Shown here: positions 16,310 through 22,674 of the stretch, one piece after another
Position numbering within the stretch: the stretch's first letter is position 1
Layout of the letters: each line of letters starts with the position of its first letter
DNA from: an uncultured Rhodobiaceae bacterium
GTDB taxonomy: Bacteria > Pseudomonadota > Alphaproteobacteria > Parvibaculales > Parvibaculaceae
Assembly: GCA_913057645.1 (NCBI GenBank)
Contig: CAJXOU010000032.1
Location: 1 to 36,064 of the forward strand
Length of the DNA stretch: 36,064 nucleotides
Direction of reading: 5' to 3'
Notes under the pieces: generated by a model
What the model saw: only the letters and a program-made list of their open reading frames with translations
Database searches by the model: none
What the model was told of the DNA's origin: nothing
Made by a program: the position numbers and the translations under genes

Positions 16310-16803
16310 GGTCAGGCGCTCCAGCAGGGCTTGCCGCCGCAGATCGGGCGGGAGAGGTCGGTTGGGCGCTGATTTAGCATGCGGGGCCGGGTGCGCCAAG
16401 GCGCAGACGAACGGGTCCACGGCGCAGCCGCCAGCGGATTCGGCGTGAAATGGAGGGGACGCGGAGCAGGTCCGGTCGCGATCCTTGGTTGTTTGTGTGA
16501 GCGGCCGAAGCTGCTCCGCGCGCGGTGTTTTTGCCCCGATGCCCTCTGCCACCCAACAGCTTCAGGCGTCTTTCAGCGAAAGAAACGTGAGAGAGGCCGT
16601 CTTGCCGAGCGGATCCTAGTGTCCGCGCCCTTCACGCATCGGGAGCCCCGGGGCGCCGGGATGCGTTACCTTCCCGGCGGCGCAGGCACCGCCCGGCTCT
16701 CCCGCACCGGACGCTCCGGATGCGCCCCTCTCGTGAAAGCCAGTGCCTCACAAGATGGGGGCGTACAAGGAGAGGGGGATAAGTTTTTTTCGCGAGGAGA
16801 AAG
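16310..16803. other. Gene-free stretch of about 0.5 kb
   Basis: Between the fumC start and the sspB stop I find no convincing gene on either strand. The short frames here have no ribosome site and no recognisable protein character. An inverted repeat, ACGCATC...GATGCGT with a GC-rich inner segment, lies at 16634-16666 and could be a hairpin ending the sspB transcript, although it has no T run. The fumC promoter must lie in this stretch. No strong -35/-10 pair stands out. Confidence 0.5.
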
Positions 16804-17277
16804 TTACTTCTTCCGGAACGCGTCGAGGCTCACGACCTCGCCCTGGCCGTCGGCGGCGGGTTCCTCGGACTTCGACGCTTCAGTCGCCTTTTCTTCGGCG
16901 ACATTGGTGCCGGCGCTTACGCCCTCGACCTGGAACTGCAGACCGAACTGGACGCTTGGATCGAAGAAGCCCTGCACCGCCGAGAAGGGGACGACGAGAC
17001 GTTCGGGAATCTTGTTGAAGGTGAGCTCGACCGAGAAACGCTCCTCGTTCACTTCGAGATTCCAGAACTGATGCTGCAGCACGATGGTCATTTCCTCGGG
17101 ATACTGCGATTGCAGTTTCTCGGAAATGTCGACGCCGGGGGCATCGGTGCGGAACGAAATGTAGAAATGATGTTCGCCGGGCAGACCTTCGTCCCGCGCA
17201 ATCTTCAGCGCGCGCCGCACGACACCCCGCAAGGCATCCTGCGCCAGCACATCGTATCGCATCAGGTCATCGGCCAA
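16804..17277 (-). CDS. sspB: SspB, ClpXP adaptor for ssrA-tagged proteins (alpha type)
   Basis: This 157-residue alpha-type SspB (also called DUF1489-independent stringent starvation protein B) binds the ssrA tag and delivers tagged proteins to ClpXP. Conserved segments are DLMRYDVLAQDALRGVVRRALKIA at the N-terminus, GEHHFYISFRTDAPGVDIS, MTIVLQHQFWNLEVNEERFSVELTFN, and IPERLVVPFSAVQGFFDPSVQFGLQF. The acidic and Ala/Glu-rich tail ending LDAFRKK is the usual flexible ClpX-tethering tail. The start is taken as TTG 17275-17277: GGAG lies six bases before it, and it places the N-terminus (MADDLMRYD) where relatives begin. The upstream ATG of the open frame adds 17 unlike residues. The split tmRNA gene lies 169 bp upstream on the same strand. 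Confidence 0.92.
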   Translation of the reverse strand: MADDLMRYDVLAQDALRGVVRRALKIARDEGLPGEHHFYISFRTDAPGVDISEKLQSQYPEEMTIVLQHQFWNLEVNEERFSVELTFNKIPERLVVPFSAVQGFFDPSVQFGLQFQVEGVSAGTNVAEEKATEASKSEEPAADGQGEVVSLDAFRKK

Positions 17278-17445
17278 TTGGTGCTCCGTGGAACTTTGAG
17301 TCGGCTTGCTTTTGTAACAACGATTCAATCAGCGTTTGGATGCGAAATCCAGACGAAGGCGGCAATCCGCAGGTTCCATCCGCCGGATTCTCGCCTATGT
17401 GGCCCGGGCGACACCGCTCCTGAATGGACGACGCTGAATGAAAGT

Positions 17446-17762
17446 GGGGGCTTCTGTTGCCAGGTGCCCCCGAACCCCGCCTTACCCGGCTAAGGGCAAG
17501 GGCTTAAATCGAGGTTGTCGCACCGCTTACGCAGCGAGACGTGCCTCAGCATAGTTGTCGTTGGCAACTATAAAACGGCCCGATAACGGTGGGTACCATG
17601 CCGGGCAAAAAGACTGTCTTTACACCCTCGTCGATCCTGGTTCGCCCCCAGGGTCCCTGCCGCGACAGGGGAAAATGGTGGAGGCGCCGGGTACTGCCCC
17701 CGGGTCCGAATGGCTTATTTCACAGTCCGTTTATCGCCATAGCCGGGCGGAAAACCGCCGGC
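17446..17762 (-). ncRNA. ssrA: Transfer-messenger RNA, permuted two-piece alphaproteobacterial type
   Basis: Read on the minus strand, the acceptor piece comes first, from about 17762 to the CCA at 17678-17676. It includes the T arm CCGGG-GGCAGTA-CCCGG and the 3' acceptor strand GCCTCC-A-CCA. A 26-nt intervening segment (17675-17650) follows. The coding piece begins at 17649 with GGGGGC, which pairs with GCCTCC and leaves the G3-U70 pair that specifies alanine. The conserved CCAGGATCGACG is next. The tag frame runs from 17565 to the TAA at 17527 and encodes ANDNYAEARLAA. The piece ends with a hairpin GGGGGC...GCCCCC (17471-17446). tmRNA with SmpB rescues stalled ribosomes and tags the nascent chain for ClpXP. 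This gene form is known from alphaproteobacteria. The exact mature 5' end of the acceptor piece and the 3' end of the coding piece are estimates. Confidence 0.95.
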
Positions 17763-17768
17763 ACTCCT

Positions 17769-17797
17769 AATATAGGGCGTAATTTCCTTATTTGAAG
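17769..17797 (-). promoter_or_regulatory. Likely ssrA promoter
   Basis: On the minus strand CTTCAA (17797-17792) and TATATT (17774-17769) are separated by 17 bp. The start of the acceptor piece would follow 7 bp after the -10 box, near 17762. The -35 box is only a partial match to CTTGAC, but the -10 box and spacing are good. Confidence 0.55.
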
Positions 17798-17813
17798 TGT
17801 ATTCGGCGCGGGC

Positions 17814-18980
17814 TTACCCCTGCGGCAACTGCTCGCGGAAAAAGCGGATGGCGTTGCCGCCCATCACTTTCGCAATCTCTTCTTCCGTGAAACCCGCTTT
17901 CTGCATTTCCGCCGTCAGGATGGCGAGTTGCGACGTGTCGAAAGCGACGGGCACGGCGCCGTCATAATCGGAGCCGAGCGCGACATGGTCGACGCCGAGA
18001 AAATCCATGGCGTAGCGGATCGATTTCACGATCTCGGCAGGTGCGGGATCGCAGACGGCGCCCTTCCAGTAACCGATGCCGACAAGCCCGCCCGCATCGG
18101 CGATCCGTTTCATCAAGGCGTCCTCGAGGTTGCGGGGGCTGTCGCAGGCGCCGCGGATGCCGGTATGCGAGACGACGACAGGCCGTGTTGCGATGTCGAG
18201 CGTGTCGCGGACGACGGCGGGCGAGGCATGGGCGAGATCGACGATGATATTGAGCCGCTCCATCTCGCGCACCGCTTCGCGGCCGAAATCCGTCAGGCCT
18301 TCGCCGGAGAGCCCGTGCAGCGAGCCGCCGAGTTCGTTGTCGAAGAAATGCGTGAGCCCCATCATCCGGTATCCGGCGGCATACAGCATTTCGACGTTCT
18401 CGATCCTGCCTTCGAGGGGGTGGGAACCTTCGGTGGCGAGAAGGCCACCGACCGGGCGGTTTCCATCGCCGCGCGCCGCGATCAGCCGGTCGATGTCGGC
18501 GGCGCTCCGCACGATCGTCAGGTCGCCGGAGGCGGCGTCCTCCGCGCGGTGGAGCTTTTCCGCCTGGTAAAGCGCGCGTTCGAAAAGGCTGTCCCATGTG
18601 CGCGCAGGCCAGCGCTGCACCATGGCGAGCAGGGTGATGACGTCGCTGTCGCCGCTGGTGCCGGTATAGCGCTGGTCGCGGGGTACCTTGGTCACCACGG
18701 AGAAGACCTGCAAGGTCACATTGCCGTCCACCAGGCGAGGCAGGTCGACATGGCCCCTGTCCGCCCGATCCAGCGGGTCGCGCGCCCAGAGCAGCGTGTC
18801 GGCGTGAAGGTCGACGACTGCCAGTTCGCCATGCCGCGCGCGCGCTTCTTCCGTTATGTCGATGGGGACGCCATCCACGATCCGGTTGATCTGGCCTTCC
18901 AGCACACCCGGCAGCAGGGCGAGGCCGGCGATCAGCACCGCCAGAACGGCTGCCCCGATGCCGATGAAAATGCGCTTCAT
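17814..18980 (-). CDS. Membrane-anchored M19 dipeptidase (renal dipeptidase family)
   Basis: This is a 388-residue zinc dipeptidase with an N-terminal membrane anchor or uncleaved signal ([22 protein letters not shown]), so it should act in the periplasm. Metal-ligand motifs of family M19 are present in order: [10 protein letters not shown] (His and Asp), [10 protein letters not shown] (bridging Glu), VDLAHASP and [11 protein letters not shown] (two His). The substrate segment [18 protein letters not shown] follows. The family cleaves a range of dipeptides, including those with D-residues at the C-terminal side. The start ATG 18978-18980 is preceded by GGAGGAG; the open frame continues 62 codons upstream but without a signal. 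The gene is divergent from thyA. Its 3' end lies next to the ssrA promoter. The natural substrate here is unknown. Confidence 0.9.
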
Positions 18981-21834: not shown

Positions 21835-21835
<1 letters not shown>

Positions 21836-22674
21836 TGTCTGTCGAAGTCCTCTCCTCGCATCGCTGTTTCGGCGGCACGCTCAGCATCTGCCGCCACGCC
21901 TCGGCGGCAACCGGCACGCCGATGCGTTTCTCGGTCTTCGTGCCCGAAGGGAAGGGGCCCTTTCCGGCGGTCACCTTTCTCGCGGGGCTCACCTGCACGG
22001 AAGAGAATTTCACCACCAAGGCGGGCGCCTATGGGGCGGCGTCGAAGCTCGGCCTTGCCGTCGTTGCGCCGGATACGAGCCCGCGCGGGTCAGGTGTCGC
22101 GGATGACGAGGCCTACGATCTGGGGCAGGGTGCCGGCTTTTACATCGATGCGACGGAGAAGCCTTGGGCGCCGCATTTCGCGATGGAGAGCTATATCATC
22201 CGCGATCTCGCATCGGCCGTGCGAGACAATTTTCCCGTGGATGGCAGGCGGCAGTCGATCGCCGGTCATTCGATGGGCGGGCATGGCGCGCTCACGCTCG
22301 CGCTCAAATATCCGGAACATTTCCGCTCCGTCTCGGCCTTCGCGCCCATTGTGTCGCCCACGCGCTGCCCGTGGGGCGAAAAGGCTTTCACGGCCTATCT
22401 CGGCGACGACCGCTCGGCATGGGCCGCGCATGATGCGTCCGCGCTCATGGCGAGCGGCGGCGCCGTCGGTCATTTCGACGATATCCTGATCGATCAGGGT
22501 CTTGGCGATCAGTTCCTCGATGAGCAGTTGAAGCCCGAGCTCTTCGAGGAAGCCTGCGCGATGCACCGGCAGACTCTCACGCTTCGCCGGCACGAGGGCT
22601 ATGATCATTCCTATTATTTCATCCAGTCCTTCATCGGCGATCACCTCACGTTTCATGCCGAGCGCCTCAAATGA
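21835..22674 (+). CDS. fghA: S-formylglutathione hydrolase
   Basis: This 279-residue serine hydrolase of the esterase D family splits S-formylglutathione into formate and glutathione, the second step of formaldehyde detoxification. The nucleophile is Ser146 in GHSMGGHG, and the catalytic His is in EGYDHSYYFI near residue 258. FLAGLTCTEENFTTKAGA is the conserved oxyanion-hole region, and APDTSPRG is a family hallmark. Its start overlaps the frmA stop by one base, and its stop overlaps the start of the next gene in ATGA. This makes a three-gene, translationally linked unit. Confidence 0.95.

Follow-up and report, generated by a model that had tools for sequence, protein, structure and literature searches.

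In Escherichia coli, ssrA, the gene for tmRNA, is adjoined by smpB, and an SspB adaptor of the Alphaproteobacteria was reportedly described by Lessner et al. in 2007. The delivery of tagged proteins to ClpXP by SspB has been reviewed for proteobacteria, worded with a "perhaps" for alphaproteobacteria in the available passages of that review (PMC3985003), and a cell-cycle role of tmRNA has been described in Caulobacter in the accessible part of another report (PMC8119881). In Pelagibacter, the tmRNA gene is flanked by thyX and COG4696 according to the available text of PMC2704228, and from that text no match of these flanks to sspB could be made. The abstract openings and passages of the openly licensed literature yielded no mention of a linkage between ssrA and sspB, and neither did the available passages of PMC3985003, PMC2704228 and PMC11915505; an earlier report is possible.

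The locus considered here lies in a window of 36,064 nt (the whole stretch of DNA that was analysed), in which an earlier note had described a split tmRNA gene on the minus strand followed in the same direction by sspB. The tmRNA gene was borne out by the covariance search that had been proposed as a check: RF01849 (alpha_tmRNA) scored 300.9 bits against a cut-off of 50 at 17800-17443(-), with the match spanning the whole model (positions 1-355), RF04321 (permuted tmRNA) scored 136.3 bits at 17738-17527(-), and ARAGORN called a permuted tmRNA at 17436-17771(-). No other ssrA match was found in the genome. The proposed order of acceptor piece, 26-nt spacer and tag-bearing coding piece could be followed directly in the sequence, as could the acceptor/coding pairing with its G-U at the third position; the acceptor piece ends in GCCTCC-ACCA at 17676, with CCA encoded at 17678-17676, and the coding piece begins with GGGGGC at 17649 and closes with a terminal stem formed by GGGGGC (17471-17466) and GCCCCC (17451-17446). 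The tag frame given by ARAGORN, ANDNYAEARLAA, ends in Ala-Ala and a stop; ARAGORN, which gave a tag for 62 of the named loci (the best 80 of 262), read this same tag in 20 of them. With the Caulobacter crescentus ssrA and RF01849, as far as the available passages of PMC3985003 describe them, the gene shares the permuted order, the G-U in the acceptor helix, an ANDN-type tag and a full-length model match, and nothing notable sets it apart from the two-piece tmRNAs of alphaproteobacteria. The first ~30 nt of the RF01849 match look like promoter rather than RNA: TTCAAA-N16-TATATT, the sole promoter-like site called in 16750-17900 by a consensus scan (0.3 predicted from shuffles), coincides with the start of the match, where UAUAUU is conserved in the model consensus. 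The coordinates of all features are collected in the table.

Features of the ssrA-sspB locus in the window (all on the minus strand; promoters are predictions)
Feature	Position	Strand	Basis
ssrA, permuted two-piece tmRNA gene	17443..17800	-	RF01849 300.9 bits; ARAGORN 17436-17771
Predicted ssrA promoter TTCAAA-N16-TATATT	17769..17796	-	promoter-consensus scan
tmRNA acceptor piece: T arm, acceptor strand GCCTCC, encoded CCA	17676..17738	-	RF04321 alignment; sequence
Acceptor/coding spacer, 26 nt	17650..17675	-	sequence
tmRNA coding piece, start GGGGGC, terminal stem then ACTTT	17446..17649	-	sequence; Rfam; folding
Tag reading frame ANDNYAEARLAA and stop	17527..17565	-	ARAGORN
Conserved block GTGTCG..N..GCCACA, imperfect inverted repeat	17398..17414	-	13-sequence alignment
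GANTC site 1 (GAATC)	17386..17390	-	sequence scan
Predicted sspB promoter TGGATT-N17-TTGAAT	17323..17351	-	22/28 sequences, fixed 29-nt length
GANTC site 2 (GAATC), overlaps predicted -10	17322..17326	-	sequence scan
GANTC site 3 (GACTC), about +15 to +19 of predicted start near 17316	17298..17302	-	scan; alignment
sspB ribosome binding site GGAG	17284..17287	-	invariant columns, 13-sequence alignment
sspB, adaptor to ClpXP for tmRNA-tagged proteins (role assigned by family)	16804..17277	-	PF04386 164.1 bits

ARAGORN gave two further calls worth recording. At one related locus (L030, 5397-5770) the predicted tag, AKNNMASVAANDNAPVAFAIAA, is unusually long. In the window itself, a tRNA-Met was called at 22442-22527, inside an S-formylglutathione hydrolase ORF (21835-22674); this call is probably false, since Rfam had no tRNA there at its cut-off.

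The second gene was also identified correctly as sspB. Its product matches PF04386 (SspB) with 164.1 bits against a Pfam cut-off of 27 over most of the domain, and the match is the only one in the genome; NCBIfam assigned no family to the product. The ORF taken mechanically opens at TTG 17328, a triplet that belongs to the predicted -10 (TTGAAT) described below. The start is probably TTG 17277, because homologs match from its first residue and the GGAG upstream is invariant, and with this start the gap between ssrA and sspB comes to 165 nt (17442-17278) instead of the 169 bp first given. The closest sspB among the best 80 of 262 loci is from Parvibaculum, with 93% identity, and the window is therefore placed in or near that genus. 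The gene shares with other alphaproteobacterial SspB genes the family match, the single match per genome and, in most sampled genomes that have both, ssrA as a neighbour; it differs in having a predicted promoter of its own in this genus, and its tag and ClpX binding are putative. As with smpB-ssrA in Escherichia coli, a gene for a protein of the tmRNA pathway is placed by ssrA, here sspB, whereas smpB is on a different contig of this genome.

The distance between the two genes was compared, as had also been proposed, across a class sample of 133 alphaproteobacterial genomes (132 family labels, with the window's own family represented twice). tmRNA exceeded the cut-off in 123 of these and SspB was found in 120, leaving 118 genomes with both. 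Of the 118, 81 have sspB downstream of ssrA in the same orientation at a distance of up to 300 nt, measured from the tmRNA end to the start of the SspB domain. A short gap on one strand that recurs in relatives is what would be looked for in an operon, although shared ancestry means that these counts are not independent events. The gap is at most 150 nt in 64 genomes, and at most 80 nt to the SspB domain in 32. Five of the remaining pairs are 301-1000 nt apart, six are 1-10 kb apart, three are further apart or reversed, and two are on opposite strands; in 21 genomes the genes lie on separate contigs, where draft assemblies leave the spacing undecided. Rows with a sub-cut-off tmRNA (G083, G058), a second tmRNA (G096, G026, G109) or a weak second SspB (G072) were dropped or set by hand. 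A second, larger and overlapping set gave 80 of 107 pairs within 300 nt, counted over the best 150 listed placements and thus in a biased subset, so that the class sample, with its 118 genomes, is the fuller count. The link between ssrA and sspB is real and widespread in the class sample, and every part of it is of a known kind.

Individual loci were followed in a set of named loci, which are the best 80 of 262 found and therefore lean toward close relatives. ssrA lies upstream of sspB on the same strand in 65 of these 80, and in 27 of the 80 the gap to the sspB match is 60 nt or less. Among the 15 others, the sequence upstream is shorter than 6 kb in five, ssrA lies just beyond 6 kb in two (L009 and L026, at 6284 and about 7158 nt upstream), and two from Zavarzinia (L038 and L045) belong to genomes that carry a tmRNA elsewhere. 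For 18 of the 80, ARAGORN made no tmRNA call. Rfam, applied to those 18, recovered three: L037, L023, which is truncated at the contig end, and L059, which is above the RF04321 cut-off and below that of RF01849. For the gap counts the tmRNA ends of these three were set by hand, that of L059 being estimated from the 3′ motif. In four Microvirga loci (L049, L053, L058 and L079) Rfam found no tmRNA on the stretch around sspB, and the genome of L049 has a weaker match, of 152 bits, elsewhere. Gaps such as those in Microvirga and Methylorubrum seem too short to accommodate a usual promoter that lies outside the tmRNA, and transcription reading through from ssrA would be the simplest way to make sspB there; judged by spacing, read-through is likely in the loci with gaps of up to 60 nt. 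The co-regulation that had been suggested from the closeness of the genes fits these short gaps (27 of 80), but is weaker for Parvibaculum, where a conserved promoter-like block stands between the genes.

Of 28 close sequences (the window and L006-L032), 22 have this block, TGGAYN-N17-TTGAAT, 55 to 94 nt upstream of the sspB start and six lack it, a descriptive count because the pattern was written post hoc. The block contains invariant columns in 13 aligned sequences, and we read it as a predicted promoter of sspB, in which TTGAAT is a weak -10; the consensus scan of 16750-17900 made no promoter call at this place. Followed by C, the pattern occurs once in the 3.75 Mb genome. A regulon sharing the block was considered and set aside: GCTGNTTGAATC has two occurrences genome-wide, one of them here and the other with flanks that look coding-like by eye, and so nothing points to a regulon. 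The block is present in L009 and L026, with ssrA at the distances given above, in L020 and L021, with about 830 nt between the genes, and in L023, L027 and L031, where a gene for an M19 dipeptidase stands between them. It is also present in L007 and L008, where Rfam had no tmRNA match on the stretch around sspB and a genome-wide search returned a fragment only in one and no match in the other, so that these assemblies may be incomplete. This persistence of the block beside sspB, even where ssrA is no direct neighbor, is independent of how the pattern was drawn up; it weakens the idea of a shared transcript in Parvibaculum and makes a shared operon that lacks a separate sspB promoter unlikely there. 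L022 and L025, which do not have the TTGAAT block, share TTGACA-N17-TAGCTC before sspB, perhaps a replacement promoter. A second conserved block, GTGTCG..GCCACA, sits between the tmRNA and the predicted sspB promoter and is recognisable also where ssrA is non-adjacent. Neither the promoter-like site of ssrA nor the conserved block of sspB had appeared in the earlier note.

That note had seen no T-run terminator between the genes, and a terminator scan of 16750-17900 indeed called no intrinsic terminator after ssrA; a T-rich tail does, however, follow the 3′ stem of the tmRNA. The 14 nt past CACT average 0.39 T compared with 0.19 further downstream, as counted on 45 distinct tails from 57 sequences having the 3′ motif exactly once, and 17 of the 45 contain four consecutive T (the T of CACT included). 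The fold of 17500-17300 (201 nt, covering the tmRNA 3′ end and most of the gap) has a z-score of -2.19, with 4 of 200 shuffles as stable. The T-rich tail would be consistent with either a leaky terminator or a processing end.

The reading that we prefer, to which we give a probability of about 0.74, is that an ordinary two-piece tmRNA gene and sspB lie together in an old neighborhood, and that in Parvibaculum sspB is expressed mainly from its own promoter in the gap, with some read-through. It builds on the observed gene identities and order, the observed widespread linkage and the conserved promoter-like block that is kept with sspB. The ssrA promoter would give rise to a precursor that is presumably cut into an acceptor RNA and a coding RNA, which together would tag proteins on stalled ribosomes. 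In Parvibaculum, the putative promoter in the 165-nt gap would provide most of the sspB transcription, and some read-through from ssrA may add to it, because no strong terminator was seen. SspB would then pass the tagged proteins to ClpXP, a role assigned from characterized relatives. In other lineages the gaps appear too short for a separate promoter, and read-through from ssrA may therefore be the ancestral state.

The two genes may also be passive neighbors that lack functional coupling, their order being kept because the region is old and slow to change; this is possible, though we hold it to be the lesser probability, and it is compatible with the preferred reading. The pair is indeed part of an older gene neighborhood. 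In the window, the M19 dipeptidase gene is upstream of ssrA, followed by thyA and dhfr on the other strand, and fumC is downstream of sspB. Among the named loci (the best 80 of 262), 56 keep dhfr upstream in the opposite orientation, 58 have fumC downstream in the same orientation and 26 have asmA downstream; several Parvibaculaceae retain ssrA and sspB while having them parted. All of this would suit passive neighbors. However, the gap between ssrA and sspB (median 89 nt, quartiles 49 and 178, 65 loci) is tighter than that between sspB and fumC (median 784 nt, quartiles 140 and 1858, 58 loci) or between dhfr and sspB (median 2879 nt, 56 loci), and most sampled genomes having both genes show them as neighbors. 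In L023, L027 and L031 the position of the M19 gene differs from that in the window, as noted above, and L027 has in addition a metal-dependent hydrolase gene (Metal_hydrol, PF10118) between ssrA and sspB; the interval of about 830 nt in L020 and L021 is filled by an ORF in L020.

A refinement of the preferred reading, which we offer tentatively, is that sspB is a target of GcrA and CcrM and that GANTC methylation switches it as the cell cycle proceeds. Three GANTC sites fall in the 165 nt preceding sspB, a number reached by 0.2% of equal-size windows in the 36 kb, at two places in total, and the 27 related loci L006-L032 have 48 sites before sspB where 5.4 are expected from local density. Genes for GcrA and for a CcrM-type methyltransferase that carries a RAMA domain are present in the genome. 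GANTC site 3 fits, on the other strand, the extended GcrA motif YGAKTCK (available text of PMC7987155) in 10 of the 13 sequences of the alignment (a count by eye), and sites 2 and 3 are within 40 nt of the sspB start of transcription, itself a prediction. Like the GcrA/CcrM promoters of Caulobacter and Brevundimonas, as described in the accessible parts of PMC3667746 and PMC7987155, the locus has GANTC sites no more than about 40 nt from its predicted start, and both regulators are encoded, but its -10 site is not of the extended type and its start, methylation and GcrA binding are putative. On the other side, the sequences counted are related, 3 of the 27 loci have no GANTC before sspB, site 2, at the -10, does not fit YGAKTCK, and GANTC is generally denser in intergenic regions, motif presence being a poor proxy for GcrA control (both in the available passages of PMC7987155). 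GANTC as a general feature of sspB was rejected, since many of the 53 loci L033-L085 are free of such sites over the 165 nt that precede the match. According to the accessible text of PMC3667746, which reports a drop for mipZ and podJ, mutation of GANTC cripples four tested Caulobacter promoters and spares a fifth, so that the mutation test is an established one. Given the cluster of sites and the encoded GcrA and CcrM-type methylase, cell-cycle control of sspB would be a testable lead.

A more far-reaching history, which seems to us rather improbable, would have a single ancestral precursor in the Alphaproteobacteria, in which the sspB message was the tail cut from the tmRNA, with Parvibaculum later acquiring a separate promoter governed by GcrA and CcrM methylation, so that cell-cycle tuning of delivery to ClpXP would be uncoupled from tagging. 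We consider it least likely that the genes at this locus form one operon in which sspB is promoterless and depends wholly on read-through from ssrA, with a cut in the precursor behind the tmRNA coding piece, since the Parvibaculum gap has a conserved promoter-like block that persists with ssrA kilobases away, and the T-rich tail after the tmRNA stem (0.39 vs. 0.19 T) suits partial termination, even though the tight and widespread linkage (gaps of up to 80 nt in 32 of 118 genomes and up to 60 nt in 27 of 80 named loci), the missing terminator call after ssrA and the failure of the consensus scan to call the sspB block would agree with such an operon.

In many alphaproteobacterial families, the RNA that tags proteins and the adaptor that delivers them are encoded side by side, which raises the question of whether their supply is matched. 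Parvibaculum, with its predicted own promoter for sspB, offers a natural contrast to the lineages in which the gap seems too short for one, and the GANTC cluster gives a concrete handle on cell-cycle control of the turnover of tagged proteins.
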